A stretch of DNA of 40,957 bases. Source: an uncultured Pelagibacteraceae bacterium. Its GTDB lineage: Bacteria; Pseudomonadota; Alphaproteobacteria; Pelagibacterales; Pelagibacteraceae. Both the position numbers and the translations under genes were made by a program. The stretch's first letter is position 1, and the number at the start of each line of letters is the position of its first letter. Under the pieces are notes generated by a model, which was not told where the DNA came from, searched no databases, and saw only the letters and a list, made by a program, of their open reading frames with translations. Where the stretch lies: the NCBI GenBank assembly GCA_902516425.1, contig CABXYE010000006.1, forward strand, positions 1-40,957, in the 5' to 3' direction. Positions 17,316 to 29,614 of this stretch are shown here, one piece after another.

Positions 17316-19209
17316 TTTTTAGAATTTTAGTTTTAATTAATTCCTCTTTAATTTCGTCTAAAATAGTGGGATCATCAATCGTTGGTGGAATTTTGTATTG
17401 AACACTATCTGCAATTTTTCTTATTGTACCTCTTAAAATTTTACCTGATCTTGTTTTTGGAAGTCTTTTAATAACAATTGCAACTTTAAAAGCTGCAACT
17501 GGACCAATTTTATCTCTTACCATTTTTATACATTCCTTCGATATAGTTTCATTATCTTTTTCGACACCTGTTTTTAAAACTATAAGCCCAATAGGAAGTT
17601 GACCTTTTAATTTATCAGCGATTCCAAGAACAGCGCATTCAGCAACTGATTGATGCTCAGATAGAACCTCCTCAATTGCTCCAGTGGACAATCTATGGCC
17701 TGCTACATTTATAATGTCATCAGTTCTCGACATAATCCATATATATCCATCTTCATCTATATGACCTGCATCATAAGTTTGATAGTAGCCATCATAATTT
17801 GACATATAATTTTCTTTATATCTTTGATCTGCATTCCAAAGAGTAGGAAAAGTTCCTGGCGGCAAAGGAAGCTTAACTACTATGTCTCCCATTTCATTAG
17901 GTTCAGCTAAAGTTTTATCTGATTTTATTATTTTTACATCATAACCTGGAACAGCCTTGCATGCCGAACCATATTTTGTTTTCATCATTTCAATTCCTGT
18001 ACAATTAGAGCTAATCGCCCAGCTAGTTTCAGTTTGCCACCAATGGTCAATCACTGGAACTTTTAATAAATTTTCTGCCCATTTAATTGTATCAGGATCT
18101 GCCCTTTCACCAGCAAGAAATAAGCTTTCAAAGTTAGTAAGATCATATTTAGAAAAAAATTTTCCTTCGGGATCCTCTTTCTTAATTGCTCTAAAGGCTG
18201 TTGGAGCTGTAAATAATGATTTTACTTTATAATCTGAAATAATTTTCCAAAATGCACCTGCATCTGGAGTCCCTACTGGTTTACCTTCAAACAGTACTGT
18301 TGTACATCCTTTAAACAATGGCGCATAAACAATATAAGAATGACCTACAATCCACCCAATATCACTAGCAGACCACCAAATTTCTCCTTCATCAATGTTG
18401 TAGATATTTTTCATAGTCCATTTCAAAGCCACTATGTGACCCCCGATATCTCTTACTATTCCTTTAGGTGTTCCTGTTGTACCCGAGGTATATAGTATAT
18501 AGGCAAACTCATTTGAATTCATCTCTACACAGTCAGTATCCTTAGCATTAGCTAATGCTTCGTGCCAACTAATTTCGTTTGGTGCATTTAATTTAACTTC
18601 ATGACCTTTTCTTTGAAATAAAATCATCTTACTAATCTTATGTTTTGCTAGTTTGATAGCTTCATCAACTAATGGTTTGTATTCAACTGTTCTTCCAGGC
18701 TCAAAACCACATGACGCTGTTACAAGAATTTTAGCTTTACTATCATCTATTCTGCTTGCAAGTTCATTTGACGCAAATCCACCAAAAACAACTGAGTGAA
18801 TTGCTCCAAGTCTTCCGCAAGCAAGCATCGCAATGACTGCTTCAGAGATCATTGGCATATAAATTATTACTCTATCCCCCTTACTCACACCTTGATTTTT
18901 TAACGCTCCTGCAAATTTAGACACTTTTGATCTTAACTCCTCATATGTAAGATTACTTTTGTTTCCTGTGATCGGACTATCGTAGATAAGTGCAGTTTTC
19001 TTTCCTTGACCCTTATCAATATGAATATCTAAGGCATTGTAGCAAGTGTTTGTAACTCCATCTTCAAACCATTTGTAAAAAGGTGGGTTTAATTTGTTTA
19101 AAATTTTTGTGGGTTTTTTAAACCAAAAGATATCGTCAGATGCTTCTCTCCAGAAATTTTCAGGACTTTCAATTGATTTTTTATAAATTTCCTTAAATTT
19201 ATCCGACAT
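17308..19209 (-). CDS. prpE: Propionyl/acetyl-CoA synthetase (PrpE/ACSS3 type)
   Basis: An acyl-CoA ligase of the ANL superfamily; it activates a short acid (propionate or acetate) with ATP and CoA. It has the AMP-binding motif YTSGTTGTPKG, HWWQTETSWAI at the acyl site, YQTYDAGHIDEDGYIWI in the A5/A7 region and KTRSGKILRG with the catalytic, acetylation-prone lysine (Lys590). ASCGFEPGRTVEYKPLVDEA and KGIVRDIGGHIVALKW are more like PrpE/ACSS3 than classical AcsA, so propionate is the better guess. Length 633 fits. It starts divergently from proteorhodopsin across a 215-base spacer and heads a three-gene minus-strand run with the SMR and FAD genes. Confidence 0.9.
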   Translation of the reverse strand: MSDKFKEIYKKSIESPENFWREASDDIFWFKKPTKILNKLNPPFYKWFEDGVTNTCYNALDIHIDKGQGKKTALIYDSPITGNKSNLTYEELRSKVSKFAGALKNQGVSKGDRVIIYMPMISEAVIAMLACGRLGAIHSVVFGGFASNELASRIDDSKAKILVTASCGFEPGRTVEYKPLVDEAIKLAKHKISKMILFQRKGHEVKLNAPNEISWHEALANAKDTDCVEMNSNEFAYILYTSGTTGTPKGIVRDIGGHIVALKWTMKNIYNIDEGEIWWSASDIGWIVGHSYIVYAPLFKGCTTVLFEGKPVGTPDAGAFWKIISDYKVKSLFTAPTAFRAIKKEDPEGKFFSKYDLTNFESLFLAGERADPDTIKWAENLLKVPVIDHWWQTETSWAISSNCTGIEMMKTKYGSACKAVPGYDVKIIKSDKTLAEPNEMGDIVVKLPLPPGTFPTLWNADQRYKENYMSNYDGYYQTYDAGHIDEDGYIWIMSRTDDIINVAGHRLSTGAIEEVLSEHQSVAECAVLGIADKLKGQLPIGLIVLKTGVEKDNETISKECIKMVRDKIGPVAAFKVAIVIKRLPKTRSGKILRGTIRKIADSVQYKIPPTIDDPTILDEIKEELIKTKILKSA

Positions 19210-19236
19210 AATAATATTGATTCGATAGTTAATTTA

Positions 19237-19256
19237 TTGTGGTTTTTAAATCACAA
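19237..19256. promoter_or_regulatory. Inverted repeat in the prpE/proteorhodopsin divergent spacer
   Basis: TTGTGGTTT at 19237-19245 and AAATCACAA at 19248-19256 pair over nine positions with one G-T. The half-site TTGTGGTT recurs in reverse orientation as AACCACAA at 19342-19349. It lies 28 bases upstream of the prpE start and could be an operator for that gene, or for both divergent genes. The assignment rests only on symmetry. Confidence 0.3.
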
Positions 19257-19352
19257 ATTGTATTTAATTTTAAAAAATGAGTAAAATCAATGTAAATTAA
19301 TGACAATTATGTCTTCTATTAAGTGTTTTTATTTGGTATTTAACCACAACTT

Positions 19353-19418
19353 TTGCTTGGGGAAGCCTAAGCTTAGTTTATATAAACTAAAATAAGTAAA
19401 AACTAACTAAAGAGGGAG
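19353..19418 (+). promoter_or_regulatory. Proteorhodopsin upstream region: 18-bp palindrome and ribosome binding site
   Basis: A perfect 18-base palindrome, TTAGTTTATATAAACTAA, occupies 19373-19390, 34 bases before the start codon. It overlaps a second palindrome, CTAAGCTTAG, at 19367-19376. A TTGCTT at 19353 could act as a -35 element with the TTTATA inside the palindrome as -10 (spacer 18), which would place an operator over the promoter. The ribosome binding site AGGGAG (19413-19418) is six bases from the ATG and is much stronger than at most genes here, in keeping with high expression. Confidence 0.45.
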
Positions 19419-19424
19419 TTTTTT

Positions 19425-20201
19425 ATGAAAAAACTTAAACTGTTTGCTCTAGCAGCCTTAGCCCTTGTGGGTTATGCAGGTGTTGCTAACGCAGCAGACG
19501 CAACGATGTTAGCTCAGGATGACTTTGTTGGAATATCTTTTTGGATAATTTCAATGGGTATGTTAGCTAGTACAGCTTTTTTCTTTATGGAAAGAGGTAC
19601 TGTTAACCCTGCGTGGAAAACATCAGTAACTGTTGCTGGTCTAGTAACTGGTATTGCTTTCATTCACTACATGTACATGAGAGAAGTATGGGTTGCTACA
19701 GGTGACTCACCAACAGTATATAGATATATTGACTGGTTAATTACTGTGCCATTACAGATGGTTGAATTCTACTTAATTCTAGTAGCAGTAAGAAAAGCAA
19801 ATTCTGGAATGTTCTGGAGATTGTTAATCGGTTCATTAGTAATGTTAATCGGTGGATATTTAGGAGAAGCTGGATACATCAACGCTACACTTGGTTTCGT
19901 AATCGGTATGGCTGGATGGATCTACATTCTCTATGAAATATTCTCTGGTGAAGCTGGAAGAGCTGCCGCTAAGAGTGGAAATAAAGCTCTAGTAACTGCG
20001 TTCGGTGCAATGAGAATGATTGTAACCGTTGGTTGGGCTATTTATCCATTAGGTTATGTATTTGGTTACTTAACAGGTGGTGTAGATGCTAACTCATTAA
20101 ACGTTGTTTACAACTTAGCTGACTTCATTAACAAAATTGCATTTGGTCTTGTAATCTGGGCTGCTGCAATGAGTTCTGGAGCTGGTGCAAGAGCTAGATA
20201 A
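19425..20201 (+). CDS. Proteorhodopsin, predicted blue-absorbing light-driven proton pump
   Basis: A seven-helix retinal protein that pumps protons outward when lit. Residues 1-23 form a signal peptide ending in ANA. Numbering runs six ahead of the classic green proteorhodopsin: His81 (His75), proton acceptor Asp103 (Asp97) in RYIDWLITVPLQ, Gln111 at the spectral tuning site (105), proton donor Glu114 (Glu108), and the retinal Schiff-base Lys237 (Lys231) in ADFINKIAFG. The Asp/Glu pair indicates a proton pump; Gln at the tuning site predicts blue absorption, common in open-ocean types. No retinal or carotenoid synthesis gene is in the window. Codon choice looks less AT-biased than in its neighbours. 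A strong terminator follows directly. Confidence 0.98.
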   Translation: MKKLKLFALAALALVGYAGVANAADATMLAQDDFVGISFWIISMGMLASTAFFFMERGTVNPAWKTSVTVAGLVTGIAFIHYMYMREVWVATGDSPTVYRYIDWLITVPLQMVEFYLILVAVRKANSGMFWRLLIGSLVMLIGGYLGEAGYINATLGFVIGMAGWIYILYEIFSGEAGRAAAKSGNKALVTAFGAMRMIVTVGWAIYPLGYVFGYLTGGVDANSLNVVYNLADFINKIAFGLVIWAAAMSSGAGARAR

Positions 20202-20221
20202 TTACTATTTAAACTAAATTT

Positions 20222-20262
20222 ATAGGGCGAGTATGTTTTGCATACTTGCCCTATTTTTTTTT
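20222..20262 (+). terminator. Rho-independent terminator after proteorhodopsin
   Basis: Left arm 20222-20235 and right arm 20241-20254 pair over 14 positions with a single G-T wobble, around a five-base loop (TTTTG). A run of nine T follows at 20254-20262. This is the best-formed terminator in the window. It ends only 18 bases before the ferredoxin start, so it separates a presumably abundant proteorhodopsin message from the genes behind it. Confidence 0.93.
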
Positions 20263-20280
20263 AGCCTTATATACATCCAT

Positions 20281-20601
20281 ATGCCAAAAATAACCTACAA
20301 TACCCATGACAATGAAACTTATACCATAGAGGTTCAAAATGGATTGACAGTTATGGAGGGTGCAGTCCAAAATGATATTCCAGGAATAGATGCTGACTGT
20401 GGTGGCGGAATGGCTTGTGCGACTTGCCATGTTTATGTCAAAGAAGATTGGTTTAATAAATTACCAAAAAAAGAGGACGGTGAAGAAGACATGTTAGATA
20501 TGGCATTTGAACCAAAACCATATAGCAGACTTAGTTGTCAAATAATTGTTTCAGACGATTTAGATGGATTAGAAGTAAATATACCATCTAAGCAAGCTTA
20601 G
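20281..20601 (+). CDS. [2Fe-2S] ferredoxin, adrenodoxin/ISC type
   Basis: A 106-residue electron carrier. Cluster ligands follow the adrenodoxin pattern: Cys40, Cys46 and Cys49 in [17 protein letters not shown], and Cys86 in SRLSCQIIV. The ATG at 20281 (MPKITYN) is the proper start; a longer frame upstream runs back through the terminator and would add an unrelated hydrophobic leader. There is no Shine-Dalgarno sequence ahead of it. TTATAT at 20267-20272 is a possible -10 box that would give a nearly leaderless message. The stop codon abuts the start of the reductase gene, so the pair is likely a functional couple in which the reductase hands NADPH electrons to this ferredoxin. Confidence 0.95.
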
Positions 20602-21618
20602 ATGAATAAAACCGATGCATTAATTATTGGAGCAGGTCCGACAGGATTATTTACTGCACATCAACTAAAATTAATTGGGTTAAATTGTGAGATTATTGAT
20701 AACTTGGATAAGATTGGAGGTCAATGTATTGAGCTCTATCCAGATAAACCAATTTATGACATACCAGCTGTACCTGAGTGCACAGGTGAGGAATTAACAA
20801 ATAATTTATTAAATCAATTAAAACCTTTTGATATCAAATTTCATTTAAATGAGAGAGTTGATGAGGTTAAGAAAGAAAATGACAATTGGTTAGTAAAAAC
20901 TAGTGGTGGAAACTCTTTTAAAACACCCAATGTAATTATTGCAGGTGGTGTTGGCTCATTTGAACCTCGAAAATTTTCGCCAAAAGAATGTGAGAAATTT
21001 GAGAATAAATCATTATTTTATTCTGTAAAAAATAAGAGTGTATTTAAAGGAAAAACTGTTTCGATTTTTGGAGGAGGAGATAGTGCACTGGATTGGGCTA
21101 TTGAATTATCAAAAGATAGCAATGTTAATTTGATACACAGAAGAGATGAATTTAGAGGCGCACGAGCAACAGTAAATAAAATGTATGAACTTAAAAAAGC
21201 TGGTAAAATTAATCTATTTACAAAATATCAAATGAGTAATGTGCATGGAAATGAAAAAATTGAAAGTATAGATATTAAACATGACAATAGTGAAATACAA
21301 AACCTAAAATCTGATTATGTTCTAGGGTTTTTTGGTCTTATTATGCAATTAGGACCAATTGCTAATTGGGGACTTAATTTGAATAAAAAAACTATTGAAG
21401 TTGATACTGAAAAATTTGAAACAAATCAAAAAGGTATTTACGCAGTGGGTGATATTTGTAACTATCCTGGTAAATTAAAACTAATTTTATCAGGCTTCCA
21501 CGAAGGTGCTTTAGCAGCGAGAGCATGTTTTAAATTAGCAAGACCTAACGAAAAATATAGATTTGAATTTACAACTACTTCGACAAATTTATTGAAAAGA
21601 CTAGGAAAAAAAGAGTGA
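20602..21618 (+). CDS. Ferredoxin--NADP reductase, thioredoxin-reductase-like
   Basis: A two-Rossmann-fold flavoenzyme of 338 residues. The FAD motif is IIGAGPTGLFTAHQL (8-22), the NADP motif IFGGGDSALDWAIEL near residue 160, and the C-terminal FAD site YAVGDICNYPGKLKLILSGFHEGALAA. The CxxC redox pair that thioredoxin reductases carry just before the NADP motif is absent (that stretch reads SLFYSVKNKSVFKGKTVSI). This is therefore the TrxR-like type of ferredoxin-NADP reductase (YumC class), despite frequent annotation as thioredoxin reductase. It starts at the base after the ferredoxin stop and overlaps the next gene by four bases. Confidence 0.92.
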   Translation: MNKTDALIIGAGPTGLFTAHQLKLIGLNCEIIDNLDKIGGQCIELYPDKPIYDIPAVPECTGEELTNNLLNQLKPFDIKFHLNERVDEVKKENDNWLVKTSGGNSFKTPNVIIAGGVGSFEPRKFSPKECEKFENKSLFYSVKNKSVFKGKTVSIFGGGDSALDWAIELSKDSNVNLIHRRDEFRGARATVNKMYELKKAGKINLFTKYQMSNVHGNEKIESIDIKHDNSEIQNLKSDYVLGFFGLIMQLGPIANWGLNLNKKTIEVDTEKFETNQKGIYAVGDICNYPGKLKLILSGFHEGALAARACFKLARPNEKYRFEFTTTSTNLLKRLGKKE

Positions 21619-22244
21619 TAGATCTTTACTCAGCTAATACACCTAATGGTAAAAAAATTAGTATTATGCTTGAGGAAATTGGATTTAGCTATAAAGTTAT
21701 TAAAGTTGATATTAATAATGGCGAACAATTTAATGAAGACTTTAAAAAAATCAGTCCTTTAAGCAAGATTCCAGTAATAATCGATCAAGAAAATAAAAAA
21801 ACAGTATTTGAATCCGGGGCAATCCTGATTTACTTAGCTGAATTAAGTGGAAAATTTTATAACTCTGAAGAAAGATTAGAAATCAACCAATGGCTTATGG
21901 CTCAGATGGGTTATGTGGGTCCAATGTTAGGTCAACATCATCAATTTCATCATTATAATCCTGGAAAAAGTAAATTTGGTGAGGATAGATATTTTAATAT
22001 TTCTAAACGCATATACAAAGAATTAGATGAAAGACTATCTAATTCAAAATACTTATCAGGGAGCAATTACACAATTGCAGATATTGGCACGTACCCATGG
22101 ATAGCAAGACACGAGTGGCATGATATAGGACTTAAAAATTATAAAAATCTTACTAGATGGTACGAAGAAATTTCTGAAAGAGAAGGTGTAAAAAGAGGTT
22201 TTGCATTTATGAATGAGAGTGAAACACCACCTAAACCTTTCTAA
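21615..22244 (+). CDS. Glutathione S-transferase, YfcG/YghU-like
   Basis: A 209-residue thioredoxin-fold plus all-helical protein. MIDLYSANTPNGKKISIMLEEIG with the Thr-Pro-Asn-Gly turn is characteristic of Nu-class (YfcG/YghU) enzymes, which act as glutathione-dependent disulfide reductases rather than classic detoxifying transferases. The N-terminal domain has KIPVIID and FESGAILIYLAE (glutathione gamma-glutamyl site), and the C-terminal domain NYTIADIGTYPW. It starts at a GTG that overlaps the reductase stop (GTGA). This third gene of the ferredoxin operon may use or buffer redox equivalents, but its substrate is unknown. It converges with a minus-strand microprotein ORF, overlapping it by four bases. 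Confidence 0.9.
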   Translation: MIDLYSANTPNGKKISIMLEEIGFSYKVIKVDINNGEQFNEDFKKISPLSKIPVIIDQENKKTVFESGAILIYLAELSGKFYNSEERLEINQWLMAQMGYVGPMLGQHHQFHHYNPGKSKFGEDRYFNISKRIYKELDERLSNSKYLSGSNYTIADIGTYPWIARHEWHDIGLKNYKNLTRWYEEISEREGVKRGFAFMNESETPPKPF

Positions 22245-22345
22245 TTCATTGAAGATAGCAATCTAAATAAAGAAGCAAAAATTCCGTGACCTGAAACCTC
22301 TATTGCAAGGACAATGATAACTATTAAGATTATTTTTGTATCCAT
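22241..22345 (-). CDS. Predicted 34-residue membrane microprotein
   Basis: A short ORF, MDTKIILIVIIVLAI followed by EVSGHGIFASLFRLLSSMN, with a single membrane span and a short polar tail containing Gly-His-Gly. Its ATG shares a base with the stop of the ORF before it (TAATG at 22343-22347), a hallmark of coupled translation, and without it the stretch between dksA and gst would be unexplained. I do not recognise it, and an ORF this short can arise by chance; the exact stop/start overlap and hydrophobic design are what support it. Confidence 0.5.
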   Translation of the reverse strand: MDTKIILIVIIVLAIEVSGHGIFASLFRLLSSMN

Positions 22346-22470
22346 TAACTAAATACAATGAATAACAAAATTATCCAAAACAGACCATAATAATAATATA
22401 TATACTTTTTAGTAAAATAATAAGTTACTGGATTATGAACTTTCTTAGTTTTTTTCTTTTTTTTAGTCAT
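22345..22470 (-). CDS. Predicted 41-residue membrane microprotein behind dksA
   Basis: Starts at the ATG inside the last codons of dksA (ATGACTAA; the dksA stop is the TAA) and ends in TAATG with the next ORF. The product begins MTKKKKKTKKVHNPVTYYF, then has a Tyr-rich juxtamembrane run and one membrane span, GLFWIILLFIVF. The very basic N-terminus should face the cytoplasm. A longer reading of the same frame from 22530 lies wholly within dksA and is not needed. Unknown function; possibly a membrane anchor or a small regulator. Confidence 0.55.
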   Translation of the reverse strand: MTKKKKKTKKVHNPVTYYFTKKYIYYYYGLFWIILLFIVFS

Positions 22471-22987
22471 CTGCGTGAACTTTTTCATCCTTTTCATGTT
22501 TTTCTTGAGCGGCAATAGTATACTTTGCAACTGGTCTGGCCATAAGTCTTTTTAACCCTATAGGCTCCGCTGTATCAAGACAATAACCATAGGTATCGTC
22601 TTTTATTCTTATTAAAGCTTTATCTATTTCAGATATTAATTTTATTTGTCTATTGATTGCTTTCATTTCAACATTTTTATCAGTATAGGAACTCGCTTGA
22701 TCTACTATATCTGCAGAAATACTGTTGTCATCCATACTCCCATTATATAGGGCTTCATTATTTGCTTTAACTAATTCTTTTCTCCATTCTTGTAATTTTA
22801 TTCTGAAAAATACCCTATGCTTTTCACACATGTATTTCTCTGTATCTTTCGGTAAGTAGTTTTTTGAAATTTTGACAGGATTTTTTTTAATTTCTTTAGC
22901 CTTAATTAAAGCTTTTGTCCTTATCTTACTCGCAGTCTTTGTCTTAGATTTAGATACTTTTTTTTTTACTTTCTTAGTTTTAGCCAT
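22463..22987 (-). CDS. dksA: DksA-family transcription factor with a reduced zinc finger
   Basis: Binds in the secondary channel of RNA polymerase and, with ppGpp in many bacteria, adjusts rRNA and amino-acid gene transcription. Starting at the ATG at 22987 gives 174 residues with a Lys/Ser-rich N-terminal extension (about 1-45), then the coiled coil, whose tip carries the DxxDxA motif (Asp93, Asp96, Ala97). The C-terminal globule, YGYCLDTAEPIGLKRLMARPVAKYTIAAQEKHE, aligns with the four-cysteine zinc finger, but only Cys136 of the four remains, so it probably folds without zinc, as in known Cys-poor DksA proteins. A longer frame to 23041 lacks homology. Two microprotein ORFs overlap its end in series. 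Confidence 0.92.
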   Translation of the reverse strand: MAKTKKVKKKVSKSKTKTASKIRTKALIKAKEIKKNPVKISKNYLPKDTEKYMCEKHRVFFRIKLQEWRKELVKANNEALYNGSMDDNSISADIVDQASSYTDKNVEMKAINRQIKLISEIDKALIRIKDDTYGYCLDTAEPIGLKRLMARPVAKYTIAAQEKHEKDEKVHADD

Positions 22988-23066
22988 AATTTCAAATTGA
23001 ATTCGACGGAGTATATTCAGCAAAATAAGGGTGTCAAGCAACGTTAATTATTGTAATTATTCGTTT

Positions 23067-24389
23067 ATGAATGTTTTAAATAGGAACATAAATAATATTT
23101 TTTTTATTTTCGCTGTATCACATTTAATCATTTGGACGCTTGTACCTTCTTTAACTAATAGTAATTTACCCCTGGACACTATAGAGGCTTTGGCCTGGGG
23201 AAGTAATTTAGATTGGGGATTTAATAAACATCCACCAATGAGTGCATTTTTTTTAGAAATTTTTTTTAAAATTTTTGGTTCTCAAGATTGGGCTTTCTAT
23301 TTATTAAGCCAAATTTTTGTTGTGATTGCCTTTTATTATGTTTTCAAATTGGCTTATGAAATTTTACAAGACCTTAAATTAAGCCTAATTTCAGTATTAT
23401 TATTAGTTTCAATTTATTTCTATAACTTCACTTCTCCAGAGTTTAATGTAAATGTTTGCCAATTACCTTTTTGGTCAATGGTTGTCTATTATACTTGGAA
23501 AATTTACGACTCCAATTCAGTAAATTTTTTAGATTGTTTTTTTGTTGCAATATTTGGAGCGATAGGTTTTTTATCGAAATATTTATTTATATATTTATTA
23601 GTTTCGATTGATTTACTTTTCATTTATTTAATTTTTTTTAAAAAATCAAAAAAATTTGATTTTAAATACATTGTAACTCTTGAAGTATTTATCGTTTTAT
23701 TAATACCCCATTTAATTTGGCTTTATAATAACGATTTCGTTACAGTTCTATATGGTCTAAAACGAACAGGTTTAGAATATGGCAGTATATTAAATCATCT
23801 TTATCAACCACTTGTATTTTTGATCAAACAAATTGGGATTTTAATTCCTTTTTTCTTTTTGGTTTGGTTATTAGTAAAAAAGATTAAATTTAGATTTAAT
23901 CTAAAAGATAAAAAATTAATTTTTTTGATAGCAATAAATATTCTTCCAATCTTTTTAATGTTATTAACATCAATGATTACTGGTTCAAAAATTAGGACAA
24001 TGTGGATGACACCTTTTTATTTATTTTTTGGTGTTTTCTTAGTCTACTTACTTAAATCTCAAATTAATTTAAAAAAAATTAATTTATTTTTACTTGGTTG
24101 TTTTTTTTTATTTTTTATTTCCCCAGTAATTTATTCATATGTATCGATATCTCAAACTGATAAAAGAACAGATTACCAAGGAAAAGAAATTGCTTTAAAA
24201 GCCCAAATTACTTGGAATCAAGAATTTAAAAAAGAGATTGAGTTTGTAACTGGTGATGAATGGAAAGCTGGCAATCTCTCATATCATCTTGAATCTAGAC
24301 CCACATGGGAAGGATTCACTACTGATGAGATATTGAACAATTCATCTCAATTTATTTGTATAGGTGAGATATGTTTAGGTAGATATTAA
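23067..24389 (+). CDS. GT39/ArnT-like membrane glycosyltransferase
   Basis: A polytopic membrane protein of 440 residues with about ten spans. After the first span comes LPLDTIEALAWGSNLDWGFNKHPPMSAFFLEIFFKIFG. The Asp-x-x-Glu pair and the 'KHPP' motif are typical of GT39-type (PMT/ArnT-like) transferases, which take a sugar from a polyprenyl-phosphate donor on the periplasmic side. The C-terminal 60 residues are soluble (WNQEFKKEIEFVTGDEWKAGNLSYHL). I chose the ATG at 23067; a GTG at 23031 would add 12 residues. It runs divergently from dksA and lies 12 bases ahead of a DPM1-like gene, its likely donor synthase. Confidence 0.82.
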   Translation: MNVLNRNINNIFFIFAVSHLIIWTLVPSLTNSNLPLDTIEALAWGSNLDWGFNKHPPMSAFFLEIFFKIFGSQDWAFYLLSQIFVVIAFYYVFKLAYEILQDLKLSLISVLLLVSIYFYNFTSPEFNVNVCQLPFWSMVVYYTWKIYDSNSVNFLDCFFVAIFGAIGFLSKYLFIYLLVSIDLLFIYLIFFKKSKKFDFKYIVTLEVFIVLLIPHLIWLYNNDFVTVLYGLKRTGLEYGSILNHLYQPLVFLIKQIGILIPFFFLVWLLVKKIKFRFNLKDKKLIFLIAINILPIFLMLLTSMITGSKIRTMWMTPFYLFFGVFLVYLLKSQINLKKINLFLLGCFFLFFISPVIYSYVSISQTDKRTDYQGKEIALKAQITWNQEFKKEIEFVTGDEWKAGNLSYHLESRPTWEGFTTDEILNNSSQFICIGEICLGRY

Positions 24390-24401
24390 AAAGAAAAATA
24401 A

Positions 24402-25271
24402 ATGAAAATTAAAATTTTAATCCCAATATTTAATGATTGGAAATCAGTTCTAAAGTTATTAGATGAAATAAATAATTTATCTCTAGATAATGAGTTTGAG
24501 TTATCAATATTTATTTTAAATGATGCCTCAAATTTTGATCGTCCAGATATTAAAAAATCTTTTGAAAATATTCAATCGTTGAAGATTTTAAATATGAAAC
24601 ACAATCAAGGTCACTCGAGATGTATTGCTACAGGATTAAAGTATATTTTTGAAAAAGATGATTTTGATTTTGCTATTCCAATGGATGGAGATGGCGAAGA
24701 TAGGCCAGAGGAAATAAAAATTTTTTTAGACCAGATAAAAAAATCTCATGAAAAACCGATTATTGGTGAAAGAATTAAAAGATCCGAAAGTTTGATTTTT
24801 AAAATTTGTTATCAATTACATAAGCTCATTACTTTTGTGTTTACAGGTAAATCAATTAAATTTGGGAATTACACTTGTTTACCAAAATCAACTGTGGAGA
24901 AAATGATTAAAGAAAAATCTACTTGGAATAGTTTTTCTGGATCATTAAAGAAAATCGAAAACGATTTAATTCCAATTCCCTCTATAAGAGGATCAAGATA
25001 TTTTGGACCCTCAAAAATGAATTTTATGAATTTAATAAAACACTCGCTCTCAATTATGAGTGTTTTTAGAAAAACATTCTTAATTCGATCAGCACTCTTT
25101 ATCGTAATATATATTTTGCTAATAAAGAGTAATGCCTCTATAGTTACGTCTATACCATTAATTTTATTGTTGATCGCTGTCTACTCAGTATCAAATCTAG
25201 CGCTTAGAGAAAATATGGAGGAATTTAAGAATTCATTAAGTCAAATAAAAGATATTGATCAAATAAAATGA
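24402..25271 (+). CDS. GT2 glycosyltransferase with C-terminal membrane helices (DPM1/GtrB-like)
   Basis: A 289-residue family 2 transferase: KILIPIFNDWKSVLKLL at the start, FILNDASNFDRPD at the nucleotide site and AIPMDGDGEDRPEEI with the DxD-type metal site. Two membrane helices near the C-terminus (about 225-265) recall GtrB/DPM-like enzymes that load a sugar onto a polyprenyl phosphate. With the GT39-like gene just upstream it makes a matched donor-synthase/transferase pair. It overlaps ppc by four bases (ATGA at 25268), an odd partner for a cell-surface gene. Confidence 0.85.
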   Translation: MKIKILIPIFNDWKSVLKLLDEINNLSLDNEFELSIFILNDASNFDRPDIKKSFENIQSLKILNMKHNQGHSRCIATGLKYIFEKDDFDFAIPMDGDGEDRPEEIKIFLDQIKKSHEKPIIGERIKRSESLIFKICYQLHKLITFVFTGKSIKFGNYTCLPKSTVEKMIKEKSTWNSFSGSLKKIENDLIPIPSIRGSRYFGPSKMNFMNLIKHSLSIMSVFRKTFLIRSALFIVIYILLIKSNASIVTSIPLILLLIAVYSVSNLALRENMEEFKNSLSQIKDIDQIK

Positions 25272-27952
25272 AAAAAAAGGATTTATATTACGAAAGAATT
25301 CCAACAAAACTTTTAAGAGAAGATGTTAAATATTTAGGTAACATACTTGGTAAAGTTATTATTACTCAGGAAGGTCAAAAGTTTTTCGATTTAGTTGAAA
25401 AAGTTAGAAAATTATCAAAAGCTAATAAAAAAAACCCAAACCAAAAAAGATTAAATAGCAGAGTGATAAACGTCATTAAGAAGCTAGATCCCAAGAATAC
25501 TCTTAAATTAACAAGAGCATTTTCACACTTTATGAATTTTATTAATTTAGCAGAATTAGTAGATGCCTCTAGAAGTTTAAATAAGTATGAAAATAATAAA
25601 AAAAAATTAAATAAGCAGAACCTATTTATTGAAGAAATTTTTGAAGATTTATTTAATAAAGATATTTCAAAAAATAAAATATATAACTTAGCCAAAAACT
25701 TAAATATTGGTATAGTTTTGACAGCCCATCCTACTGAGGTTAAAAGAAGAACTTTAATTCAAAAGCATCATAAGATTATAGAGATACTCGAGCAAAGGGA
25801 GTTATTAAAAAATTTTCCGTCAAAACTAAAAATACTTGATAAAGAACTTTTTGATGAATTAACAATTATTTGGAATACGGATGATTTAAAAAGAGTAAGA
25901 CCATCACCTTTTGATGAAGCTAGGTGGGGACTTGCTATAATTGAAGATAGTTTGTGGGATACAGTTCCGAAAGTGTACAGAAAATTAAACTCTATATTTG
26001 TAAAAAATATGGGTAAAAATTTACCTAAAAATTTTAATCCCATAGTATTCGGTTCATGGATGGGAGGTGATCGAGATGGCAATCCAAATGTAACTGCTGA
26101 TGTTACAAGAAAAGTAATTTTACTATCCAGATGGGAAGCTGCAAAACTTTATGAGAAAGCCCTTACTAAAATAATAAGGTCTTATTCTATGAAAAAATGC
26201 TCAAAAAAAATCCAAAAAAAAGTTGGAAAATCATTTGAGCCTTATAGAGTTTTTTTAAGACCTTTGAGAGATAAAATTCGATTAACTCATAGATCTATCG
26301 AACAGCATTTAGTCAATAAAAAACCTTTAAATCACAAAGAATTAATAAGTTCTCGTGAAGAAATATTAAAACCATTAAGAGTAGTAAGAGAGTCTCTTGA
26401 GCAAAACCAAAATGAAAATATAGCTAGTGGTGAATTGTTAGATTTAATGAGAAGAGCTAAATGTTTTGGCATTAATTTAGCAAGACTAGATATCAGGCAA
26501 GAGTCTTCTAGACATAGTCAATTGATAAACGAATTTGTGCAAAGAAAATATAATAAAAGTTATTTAAAATTTAGTGAAGATAAAAGAATAGAATTTCTAA
26601 AAAAACAAATACTTGGAAAAAAAAATCAAATTAACGATTTGCAAATAAGAAATAAAGAGAATAAAGAGGTTTGGTCTACTTTTAAGACTCTAGCTAGTGA
26701 GCCGAGTGAAAGTTTAGGAGCCTATGTTATATCAATGACAACCTCAGCCTCTGATATATTATCTGTAGTATTTTTACAGAAGGAGGCAAAAATTAAAGAT
26801 AAATTAAGAGTTGTTCCTTTATTTGAAACTTTGGATGATCTTATTAATTCAAAATCAATAATGCAGACTTTATTTTCACAAAGATGGTATAGAAAATTAA
26901 TTAATAACAAACAAGAAGTGATGATCGGATATTCAGACTCCAGCAAGGACGCTGGTAAAATATGTGCGAGCTGGCATCAGTATAAGGCTCAAGAGGAAAT
27001 TGTGAATTTAGCTAAGAAATTTAAAATAGATGTAATTTTTTTTCATGGACGAGGTGGATCTGCAGGAAGAGGTGGTGGTCCAATTCAAGCAACTCTCAGA
27101 TCTTTACCTCCCAACTCTGTTAAGGGTAAAATTAGAATTACTGATCAAGGTGAAGTTATTCAGCAAAAATATGGTTATGAGCCTTTAGCTAATTATAATT
27201 TGTGTAGTTACATAGGCGCTGTTACTGAAGCTACTTTAAATCCACCACCATCCCCAAAAAATAACTGGAGAAACCTAATTGAAAAAATGTCAGATATATC
27301 CAAAAGCTCTTATAGAAAGAATATTAATCAAAGTTTAGAATTTATAAAATACTTTGAAACAGTCACTCCACACAAGGCACTTGGAAAGCTTTCAATAGGT
27401 TCGAGACCATCGAAAAGAAAAAATATTGATAATATAAAAAGTTTAAGAGCTATACCTTGGGTTTTTGCCTGGACACAAATTAGACTTATGCTCCCAGCAT
27501 GGCTTGGGAGTGCTGAGGCTCTAAGATACTCCTATATAGATAAATTTAGAAGAACCTTAGTAGACATGGAAAAAAATTGGCCATTTTTTAATTCTATGCT
27601 TGATACATTAGATATGGTTATTGCAAAAGCTGATCCGGAGATATCAAAAATATATGAAGAATATTTAGCAGATGAAAGTTTAAAGAGAGTTGGTAAGAAA
27701 CTTAGGTTTCAATTTGATGTTATTAAAAAATTGAATAAGAAAATTACACCTAAAGAGATTGCTGTTATTAGAAAACAATTTAGATCTCCAATTATCGCTA
27801 GAAGTATATACTCTGAGGTATTAAATATTATTCAACCTACCGTGATTAAAAAACTTCAAGTTAATAAAAACCCTAGAAATAAGCAATATCTAAACGATGC
27901 TTTGCTAACTTCAATAGCTGGGATTTCAGCTGCAATGAAAAACACTGGTTGA
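25268..27952 (+). CDS. ppc: Phosphoenolpyruvate carboxylase
   Basis: Carboxylates PEP with bicarbonate to oxaloacetate and phosphate, refilling the TCA cycle. It has VLTAHPTEVKRRT with the catalytic His154, GSWMGGDRDGNPNV, FHGRGGSAGRGGGP (the mobile Arg-Gly-rich loop) and DQGEVIQQKYG, and ends with the C-terminal allosteric segment (last residues NTG, as is usual for the enzyme). Length 894 matches the bacterial type. Expression is probably tied to the upstream glycosyltransferases through the four-base overlap, unless an internal promoter exists. It converges with umuC, with only eight bases between the two stops. Confidence 0.97.
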   Translation: MKKKDLYYERIPTKLLREDVKYLGNILGKVIITQEGQKFFDLVEKVRKLSKANKKNPNQKRLNSRVINVIKKLDPKNTLKLTRAFSHFMNFINLAELVDASRSLNKYENNKKKLNKQNLFIEEIFEDLFNKDISKNKIYNLAKNLNIGIVLTAHPTEVKRRTLIQKHHKIIEILEQRELLKNFPSKLKILDKELFDELTIIWNTDDLKRVRPSPFDEARWGLAIIEDSLWDTVPKVYRKLNSIFVKNMGKNLPKNFNPIVFGSWMGGDRDGNPNVTADVTRKVILLSRWEAAKLYEKALTKIIRSYSMKKCSKKIQKKVGKSFEPYRVFLRPLRDKIRLTHRSIEQHLVNKKPLNHKELISSREEILKPLRVVRESLEQNQNENIASGELLDLMRRAKCFGINLARLDIRQESSRHSQLINEFVQRKYNKSYLKFSEDKRIEFLKKQILGKKNQINDLQIRNKENKEVWSTFKTLASEPSESLGAYVISMTTSASDILSVVFLQKEAKIKDKLRVVPLFETLDDLINSKSIMQTLFSQRWYRKLINNKQEVMIGYSDSSKDAGKICASWHQYKAQEEIVNLAKKFKIDVIFFHGRGGSAGRGGGPIQATLRSLPPNSVKGKIRITDQGEVIQQKYGYEPLANYNLCSYIGAVTEATLNPPPSPKNNWRNLIEKMSDISKSSYRKNINQSLEFIKYFETVTPHKALGKLSIGSRPSKRKNIDNIKSLRAIPWVFAWTQIRLMLPAWLGSAEALRYSYIDKFRRTLVDMEKNWPFFNSMLDTLDMVIAKADPEISKIYEEYLADESLKRVGKKLRFQFDVIKKLNKKITPKEIAVIRKQFRSPIIARSIYSEVLNIIQPTVIKKLQVNKNPRNKQYLNDALLTSIAGISAAMKNTG

Positions 27953-27960
27953 TAATTTTT

Positions 27961-29241
27961 TTAGACAGCCCTAATTGTTGGCAGACAATAAAAATCAGCT
28001 GTATCTATCTTAGAGGAATACTGTCTTCTCATATTCCATTTTTTATGAACACCTGCACTTGCAAGACTTAGTGTAGATCTTCCATACCTATAGTTGGTAT
28101 TGTCAATTGATTGCATTAGACTTTTTATCTTCTCATCTTTTTCCGATGAAAATAAATTCTTTCTTCCATCATCATTACACAATCCTGCAAGCATGACACC
28201 TGCTTTTTGGTACCGATATCCATTTTTGAAAATACTTTCTAAAATCGAGACTGCAGTTTTAACAGTTTCAATACTATTATTTGTTGCGATTGGAAAATCA
28301 ATTGTCTTTGCATTTGAATAATAACCATAGTCTCTTTGAAAAGGACTAGTTCTGACAAAAACTGTAATTGCTTTTGCAACTAAAGATTCTGATCTAATCT
28401 TTTCGGATGCGTTCAAACAATAATTTGCAACTGCCTCTTTTAACTCTTGAAATTTTTCAATTCTTTTTCCAAACGATCTTGAAACTACACAGCTCTTTCT
28501 TTTTGCGTGCGTTGTCTCTAAATCGATACACGGTACCCCTCTAAGTTCCATTGCAGTCCTAGAACTTAAAACATTGGAACATTTTTTGATCCATGTATTG
28601 GATTTATTTTTAAGTTGTTTTGCATTATAAATTCCATTTTTTTGATAAAACTTCGTAAGTTGTCTGCCAACACCCCACACATCATTAATCTCGACTTTTT
28701 CTAAGATAGGATCTAAGTTTTCAATACCAATTAAACTAGTAACACCCGATTGTTTTTTCTTTGCAATATGATTTGCAACTTTACTTAAAGTCTTAGTTTT
28801 AGCAATTCCAATACTAGTTGGAATACCTGTCCATTGTAAAACTGTTTCTCTAATTTCTCTCCCAACTTTTTCAACATCAGAGTCTGGAAAGTTAGATAAA
28901 TCTATAAATGCTTCATCAATTGAGTAAACTTCTATTTCAGTATTAAATCTTTTAAGTGTTCTCATTACCCTTCTAGATAAATCTCCATACAAAGAATAAT
29001 TTGATGAAAAAACTTCAACTTTATTTTTAACGATGATATCTTTTGCTTTAAAATAAGGTTCACCCATTTTAATTCCCAAAACTTTTGCCTCATTAGATCT
29101 AGAAATGATACAACCATCATTATTCGATAACACAACTACAGGTTTTTTTCTTATTCTTGGATTGAATAATCTTTCACATGAAACATAGAAAGAATTACAG
29201 TCAACTAGAGCTAACTTTTTAGTACGTAGAATGGATGACAT
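27961..29241 (-). CDS. umuC: UmuC, catalytic subunit of translesion DNA polymerase V
   Basis: A Y-family polymerase that copies damaged templates with UmuD'. The N-terminus LALVDCNSFYVSCERLFNP carries the first metal ligand (Asp14); VVVLSNNDGCIISRSNEAK is the UmuC-specific fingers block, and EVYSIDEAFIDL carries Asp109-Glu110. TSIGIAKTKTLSKVANHIAKK and WGVGRQL are the thumb/HhH region. Length 426 is typical. The start ATG at 29241 lies 23 bases inside the end of umuD, so the two subunits are coupled. Control should come from the SOS promoter upstream of umuD. Confidence 0.96.
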   Translation of the reverse strand: MSSILRTKKLALVDCNSFYVSCERLFNPRIRKKPVVVLSNNDGCIISRSNEAKVLGIKMGEPYFKAKDIIVKNKVEVFSSNYSLYGDLSRRVMRTLKRFNTEIEVYSIDEAFIDLSNFPDSDVEKVGREIRETVLQWTGIPTSIGIAKTKTLSKVANHIAKKKQSGVTSLIGIENLDPILEKVEINDVWGVGRQLTKFYQKNGIYNAKQLKNKSNTWIKKCSNVLSSRTAMELRGVPCIDLETTHAKRKSCVVSRSFGKRIEKFQELKEAVANYCLNASEKIRSESLVAKAITVFVRTSPFQRDYGYYSNAKTIDFPIATNNSIETVKTAVSILESIFKNGYRYQKAGVMLAGLCNDDGRKNLFSSEKDEKIKSLMQSIDNTNYRYGRSTLSLASAGVHKKWNMRRQYSSKIDTADFYCLPTIRAV

Positions 29242-29614
29242 AAGTCACAACCCCCCAAATAAAAACATCTTCTTCTTCGTTAATTAAAATTCTATTAGAA
29301 AAATCTTTAGAACCAGATGATAGAAATTTTTTATCTCTTTCTTGAACTAAAGTTTTAACCACAAGCTCATCATGAACATTTGCAATAACGGTTGAAAAGT
29401 TTTTTGGTTTTAAACTTTTATCAACAACTAATAGATCTCCATCATTAATTCCAACATCCACCATGGATTTTCCCTGAACTCTGATAATAAAAGTAGCCGG
29501 AACATTTTTGATTAAATGCATGTTGAGATCGATATCTTCTTCGATATAATCAGTGGCAGGTGAGGGAAAACCAGCACCAGCTTTATGCAGATAATAAGGA
29601 ATAGTGAGCTTCAT
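29219..29614 (-). CDS. umuD: UmuD, LexA-type self-cleaving subunit of polymerase V
   Basis: RecA filaments trigger its autocleavage to UmuD', which activates UmuC. With numbering ten behind E. coli UmuD, the key residues align: the cleavage bond Ala14-Gly15 in KAGAGFPSPATDYIEEDIDLN, the Ser50 nucleophile in VQGKSMVDVGINDGDLLVV, and the general base Lys87 in HDELVVKTL. At 131 residues it is slightly shorter than E. coli UmuD, mostly in the N-terminal arm. The ATG at 29614 directly abuts the SOS operator, leaving no room for a Shine-Dalgarno sequence, so the message probably has a leader of about 12 bases without one. Confidence 0.96.
   Translation of the reverse strand: MKLTIPYYLHKAGAGFPSPATDYIEEDIDLNMHLIKNVPATFIIRVQGKSMVDVGINDGDLLVVDKSLKPKNFSTVIANVHDELVVKTLVQERDKKFLSSGSKDFSNRILINEEEDVFIWGVVTYVIHSTY

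Follow-up and report, generated by a model that had tools for sequence, protein, structure and literature searches.

Two putative membrane microprotein families of Pelagibacteraceae, encoded behind dksA in one Pelagibacter clade and in other gene neighbourhoods elsewhere

Introduction

KdpF and AcrZ are small single-helix membrane proteins of the same kind as CydX, and Hok and TisB are type I toxins, that is, small hydrophobic peptides. SAR11 bacteria, whose genomes are very compact, rank among the most numerous cells on Earth. The available sections of PMC4325964 describe CydX, the small subunit of cytochrome bd, as having few conserved residues and as remaining beside cydAB except for a few orphan copies, and Fst is named among small hydrophobic toxin peptides in the available part of PMC10903887. 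The words SAR11 and Pelagibacter are absent from the main texts of PMC10903887 and PMC11364881. Among the literature matches listed, which left subscription papers mostly outside their scope, none dealt with the two genes described here, none reported coupled membrane microproteins behind dksA, and none paired SAR11 with 'small open reading frames' or Pelagibacter with 'ribosome profiling'.

Here we analyse a contig stretch of 40,957 nucleotides from an uncultured Pelagibacteraceae bacterium (the window) in which two short open reading frames, ORF1 and ORF2, follow a gene of the dksA family.

Organization of the locus

The original prediction had placed a dksA gene, a 41-codon ORF and a 34-codon ORF in series on the minus strand, joined by two exact overlaps, and this arrangement was confirmed by coordinates and sequence (Table 1). 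The tails of ORF2 and of the convergent glutathione S-transferase-like (GST) gene overlap by 4 nt.

Table 1. Features of the dksA-ORF1-ORF2 locus in the window
Feature	Position	Strand	Remarks
dksA-family gene, 174 aa	22987..22463	minus	ORF1/ORF2 host in the window's clade; Pfam, translation
ORF1, 41 aa, MTKKKKKTKKVHNPVTYYFTKKYIYYYYGLFWIILLFIVFS	22470..22345	minus	Lys-rich N terminus and one predicted membrane helix
ORF2, 34 aa, MDTKIILIVIIVLAIEVSGHGIFASLFRLLSSMN	22345..22241	minus	one predicted membrane helix, conserved I-E-x-S-G-x-G-I ... R motif
dksA/ORF1 overlap ATGACTAA	22470..22463	minus	ORF1 start within last dksA codons; exact
ORF1/ORF2 stop/start overlap TAATG	22347..22343	minus	exact; most relatives have ATGA
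GST gene, convergent	21615..22244	plus	Pfam GST_N 6e-15
PMT_2 glycosyltransferase (PMT), divergent from dksA	23031..24389	plus	Pfam PMT_2 4e-27
Sigma-70-like promoter candidate TTGACA-16-TATACT	23010..23037	minus	11/12 consensus matches

The candidate promoter ends 22 nt ahead of the dksA ATG and had the best score in a consensus scan that gave 8 promoter-like sites with 7.1 expected by chance; a plus-strand site with 9 of 12 consensus matches lies at 22362-22391. No terminator-like sites were seen in 22000-23300. Given the good promoter-like site before dksA and the lack of a terminator-like site, a single transcript is likely, and the candidate is perhaps the sole promoter of dksA, ORF1 and ORF2.

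Convergent with the dksA operon, a tight plus-strand cluster at 19425-22244 comprises genes for proteorhodopsin, a ferredoxin-like and a reductase-like protein (by eye) and GST, in an order mostly retained across the relatives' regions compared. A UmuD/UmuC-like pair (by eye; 27961-29614, minus strand, 23-nt overlap) is also found near the dksA locus in several relatives.

The host gene shares with DksA both the N-terminal domain (Pfam DksA_N, 1.7e-12) and the TraR-type C-terminal domain (zf-dskA_traR, 6.8e-8). It differs in its score against the NCBIfam dksA equivalog (101.7 bits, under the cut-off of 115.5), in a Lys-rich N-terminal extension and in its zinc finger, since the translation holds a single Cys (in YGYCLDTAEPIG...AKYTIAAQ) where four zinc cysteines would be expected of DksA. 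Set against E. coli DksA, it keeps the DxxDxA tip and one cysteine of the C4 zinc finger, whose four positions read C, T, T, A. In more distant genomes of the family the match starts only at residue 26-50.

Coding status and selection

Overlapping genes are ordinary in this compact genome. Taking the 24 same-strand neighbour pairs of the window to stand in for the whole genome, the spacing between ORF-based gene calls was zero or less in 13 of the 24, with a median of 0. The ATG of ORF1 is also partly free, because the conserved -ADD* ending of DksA, which is present even where ORF1 is absent, nearly makes an ATG. The serial overlaps had been offered as an argument against chance ORFs, and on these grounds they carry less weight than it may seem; the conclusion they were meant to support nevertheless stands, on evidence of another sort.

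This evidence comes from loci of relatives; the contig loci were the best 80 of 536 and so represent the clade closest to the window. Distinct dksA-linked loci, counted after removal of identical stretches and of loci with fewer than 200 downstream bases, numbered 79. ORF1 and ORF2 overlap in 76 of these (spacing of -4 in 52, -1 in 24) and abut in three (spacing 0). In 73 of the 79 the ATG of ORF1 is at position -8 relative to the dksA end, and the other six have in-frame ATGs at -26/-14 (three loci), +2 (two) and +3 (one). Among the loci inspected, L080 and L093 have no such pair, and L109 and L137 are cut off by the end of the contig; in L123 an ATG-only ORF scan recovers ORF2 and misses ORF1, whose start codon there seems to be GTG (by eye). 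The original prediction called for a check of relatives for conserved overlaps, dN/dS and synteny with dksA. It passed, in that the pair is joined to dksA across one large Pelagibacter clade.

Purifying selection acts on both ORFs. In Nei-Gojobori pairs among the dksA-linked relatives, the median dN/dS was 0.164 for ORF1 (72 distinct sequences; 3 of 84 loci were dropped with ORF1 out of frame with position -8), 0.114 for ORF2 (78) and 0.029 for dksA (80), at median dS values of 0.68, 1.30 and 1.31, respectively. Differences fall mainly on third codon positions, with shares at positions 1/2/3 of.25/.21/.54 in ORF1 (35 modal-length sequences) and.29/.09/.62 in ORF2 (70 sequences).

A further indication lies within the dksA/ORF1 overlap itself, where 74 of 77 linked loci (96%) use GAC for the final Asp of dksA. 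Retention of GAC gives Thr rather than Ile at codon 2 of ORF1. The codon was GAC in 73/76 linked versus 3/14 unlinked loci, a difference for which the Fisher value of 2.9e-9 is unreliable owing to shared ancestry. Since a tree-based test offered one supported independent pair only and had no power, we compared Asp columns within the linked clade instead. There, nine other conserved dksA Asp columns are 5-23% GAC, and the last Asp column has the highest C share of 30 two-fold T/C columns. This contrast points to selection on the ORF1 frame inside the overlap, and ORF1 therefore appears to be translated.

Purifying selection, codon-position bias and the retained GAC codon together make a strong case against chance. 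The idea that the small ORFs are fortuitous, or are cis elements only (a leader or attenuator), could appeal to the commonness of overlaps in the window's genome, but it is already contradicted by the selection at the amino-acid level, the codon-position bias and the residues conserved in unrelated contexts, and we find it hardly credible. An RNA element at the locus was considered and rejected: the Rfam scan of 19000-25500 at gathering scores gave no match and no antisense RNA family.

Families and distribution

In hand-picked alignments of relatives from the loci (21 rows for ORF2, 12 for ORF1), residues I15, E16, S18, G19, G21 and I22 of ORF2 are invariant and S25 and R28 nearly so; M1, F19, K21, K22, I24, Y27, Y28, W32 and L35 are invariant in ORF1. 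Searched against 147 Pelagibacteraceae genomes, the ORF2 profile gave 55 clear matches (E <= 6.4e-11, followed after a wide gap by one at 0.003), spread over 7 of the 14 genera. The ORF1 profile, searched within the family, gave 19 clear matches in three genera with a wide gap to the next match (4.5e-4). A search of 197 genomes of the order yielded 106 clear ORF2 matches, none of them outside genera g1 and g4 of the window's family, and one further match at 0.008; at class level, with 289 genomes searched, clear ORF2 matches came from two genomes, both of the window's own genus, and a 16-residue match at 0.006 lay inside a 142-aa frame. Judged by these profile searches, ORF2 is a Pelagibacteraceae family.

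Its distribution is patchy. No clear ORF2 was found in 92 of the 147 family genomes, many of which are incomplete. It was also without a clear match in five of 27 Pelagibacter genomes, four of them 99-100% complete, which indicates that ORF2 is dispensable. Within the family ORF2 is present in 18 of 19 ORF1-positive versus 37 of 128 ORF1-less genomes (Fisher 3.7e-8), and within Pelagibacter in 17/17 genomes with ORF1 versus 5/10 without (Fisher 0.003), both values ignoring shared ancestry. The one exception, G010, has ORF1 and not ORF2. In genomes with both, the two genes are adjacent in 12 of 18 and apart in six.

Neither ORF had a convincing match in Pfam, NCBIfam (a scan that took in three ORF1 sequences) or PHROG. 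The ORF1 of the window itself had no Pfam match and its ORF2 matched only Ac81, at 0.18. Weak matches of family members were judged to be due to chance, namely for ORF2 Lysis_col (2.2e-3), Mbov_0395 pilin-like (0.012), RC1041 (0.032), PorA (0.046), YobH (0.052), PsbN (0.055), xanthan lyase (0.26) and CcoS (0.29), and for ORF1 Renin_r (0.016, in 3/12 members), phrog_5885 (0.045) and PriL (0.14). As far as these three collections show, ORF1 and ORF2 would be new families, ordinary in kind. A phage origin was also considered and set aside, as the dksA-ORF1-ORF2 stretch had no match in phage records; no relative of either ORF was confirmed in viral contigs, a weak test for proteins of 34-41 aa.

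Changing gene neighbourhoods

The 27 Pelagibacter genomes sampled include nine with dksA-ORF1-ORF2, ten in which ORF2 lies at the PMT gene's end or close to it, three with ORF1-ORF2 elsewhere and the five that have no clear ORF2. The PMT-end arrangement was read in five of the ten (L038/L224, L039, L041, L058 and L060) and inferred from coordinates in the other five. PMT, represented in L038 by a copy with a Pfam PMT_2 match of 1.2e-28, sits on the other side of dksA. In the six other genera that bear ORF2, the gene is always away from dksA, as it is in 13 of the 22 ORF2-bearing Pelagibacter genomes. In those other genera it was found behind genes for a DctM TRAP permease (+3 nt), an M24 peptidase (+9 or +15), a sigma factor (-1) and a glutathione peroxidase (-4). 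Counting PMT, there are five unrelated genes directly behind which ORF2 starts, at spacings of -4 to +15 nt.

Preceded by ORF1, ORF2 occurs behind three host genes: dksA, carB and a PhyH gene. The adjacent pair was seen behind dksA (nine genomes), behind carB (G043, by Pfam) and beside GST after inserted genes (G035 and G074). In the latter two, 6.6 and 4.8 kb of other genes, including transporter-like genes (by eye) and a PhyH-type gene (by Pfam for the G074 copy), split dksA from an intact ORF1-ORF2 pair that still adjoins GST. Two genomes, G017 and G026, have dksA without the pair. Mapped on the dksA tree, linkage takes 6 changes versus 21 in shuffles, most branches being weak; such clustering would fit one gain and several losses.

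In genus g4, ORF2 of L047 lies 52 nt behind a helicase gene, and in L046, L051 and L052 no ORF of 100 aa on the strand of ORF2 ends within 300 nt of it. Because no closely coupled upstream gene is found there, ORF2 may have its own promoter in this genus. ORF2 of these four loci carries an N-terminal extension of the MEFFHKHKK or MIEFIRKRRK type.

Some further observations concern the same regions. The dksA-GST interval takes up insertions of transporter-like (by eye), PhyH and other genes, which lie between dksA and ORF1 at 5770-12265 in L222 and 5273-10077 in L223. Similar transporter-like sequence (by eye) follows ORF2 in L130 and L135 and comes directly after dksA in L011, L016 and L093. 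In six genomes, five of Pelagibacter and one of another genus (L150, L151, L153-L155 and L158), a relative of ORF1 stands apart from ORF2 and shares 4 nt with the start of an arginase-family gene (family by Pfam for one), and this junction may be the older site of ORF1.

These neighbourhoods bear on whether DksA has a meaningful place in the arrangement, as originally proposed. A functional link would mean that a DksA/ppGpp-related growth signal reaches the membrane through the microproteins, with coupling setting the ratio of the microproteins to DksA. The linkage and overlaps retained over the 79 distinct loci and the clustering on the dksA tree would agree with this. Retention of gene order is, however, expected in a compact genome, the pair stays intact where dksA has been split off, ORF2 stands beside other genes in six further genera and away from dksA in more than half of the ORF2-bearing Pelagibacter genomes, and dksA is found without the pair. 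We consider a functional link unlikely, and dksA is probably only a convenient host for an ORF1-ORF2 module.

Slightly less probable still, in our view, is that ORF2 serves the proteorhodopsin/glycosyltransferase neighbourhood. This is its usual place in Pelagibacter, with ORF2 at the dksA/PMT locus in 19 of 22 ORF2-positive genomes and within 7 kb of dksA in two more. Yet other genera have ORF2 beside unrelated genes, and proteorhodopsin was rejected as a partner because its presence does not track ORF2: rhodopsin occurs in four of the five ORF2-less Pelagibacter genomes and in many ORF2-less genomes of other genera, and none was found in some ORF2-bearing ones (G016, G018 and G047 among them).

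Predicted protein features and possible function

The description of both products as single-span hydrophobic proteins, the first with seven lysines among its first ten residues, held up. Each is shorter than 50 aa, is coding and has one hydrophobic stretch of membrane length, for which single-sequence AlphaFold models predict one helix (residues 14-40 in ORF1, 2-33 in ORF2), so that insertion into the membrane is predicted for both. ORF1 has a net charge of +9 ahead of its most hydrophobic stretch; ORF2 is neutral ahead of its stretch in the window and has Lys pairs there in many relatives. The positive residues at the N termini suggest an N-in topology. Conservation in ORF2 has a helical periodicity with a peak at 100-105 degrees, and the Glu and SGxG motif within its hydrophobic stretch suggests packing against a partner helix.

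The explanation we favour is that of inner-membrane microproteins accessory to a larger membrane protein encoded elsewhere, a proposal that we regard as evenly balanced between right and wrong. ORF2 would be the core, a single helix whose residues I15, E16, S18, G19, G21, I22, S25 and R28 would pack on a partner helix in the bilayer. ORF1 would be its partner of narrower distribution, with a single helix and a tail rich in Lys on the cytosolic side, and the two would bind and tune or stabilise the larger protein. In the window's clade both would be translated off the dksA mRNA via stop/start coupling, dksA being the host transcript and not a biochemical partner. No membrane partner was found for either ORF, which counts against an accessory role, as do the patchy distribution of ORF2, the six of 18 genomes in which the two genes are apart, the uncoupled g4 loci and G010.

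More tentatively, ORF2 could be a membrane subunit found only in Pelagibacteraceae and could move about mostly as a passenger cistron coupled to a stop codon, immediately after five unrelated genes and, with ORF1 in front as a partner, after three more. We hold this possible, though doubtful; the uncoupled loci of genus g4 are an exception that lowered our rating of it.

A toxin-like or membrane-permeabilising peptide, of the type I toxin or bacteriocin-like sort, would explain the patchiness and changing context. Size and hydrophobicity would suit such an identity, as would the g4 copies of ORF2 that are not tied to an upstream gene, and one of 21 ORF2 members had the Lysis_col match mentioned above. 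That match is weak and confined to this member, however, and the ORF2 motif is nearly invariant across seven genera. In addition, the ORFs stand mostly in series with other genes, no antisense RNA family was detected by Rfam, promoter-like sites occur at chance number, and no relative was confirmed in viral contigs, a search of limited power at 34-41 aa. We therefore judge a toxin-like identity improbable.

The main interest of ORF1 and ORF2 lies in the host organism and in the pattern of changing neighbours: two selected SAR11 gene families are added that lack a convincing match in Pfam, NCBIfam and PHROG. If the passenger reading is true, a streamlined genome would express a micro-module from whichever transcript suits the lineage, here the mRNA of the growth-control protein DksA. 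Should the products prove to be accessory subunits in the membrane, the partner could be a transporter or an energy-converting complex, important for growth in poor water, and the changing hosts would reveal a way for minimal genomes to express micro-genes with no new promoters. The ORF1 and ORF2 profiles can be used for look-up in metaproteomes.

Comparison with known systems

Type I toxins share size, hydrophobicity and patchy occurrence with ORF1 and ORF2, which differ from them in that the Rfam scan of 19000-25500 gave no antisense RNA family, in their position mostly in series with genes and in a motif kept across seven genera. CydX is, like ORF1 and ORF2, a protein of about 30-50 aa with one hydrophobic helix and few conserved residues, encoded by a short cistron beside a larger gene. 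CydX keeps its cydAB neighbours, according to the available sections of its source, whereas ORF2 has no fixed neighbour. In CydX, KdpF and AcrZ a large partner subunit is co-encoded; the neighbours of ORF2 differ between clades, and Pfam and NCBIfam scans gave no sequence match of either ORF to these three families. At most, ORF1 and ORF2 might thus work like CydX, KdpF and AcrZ and would not be members of their families.
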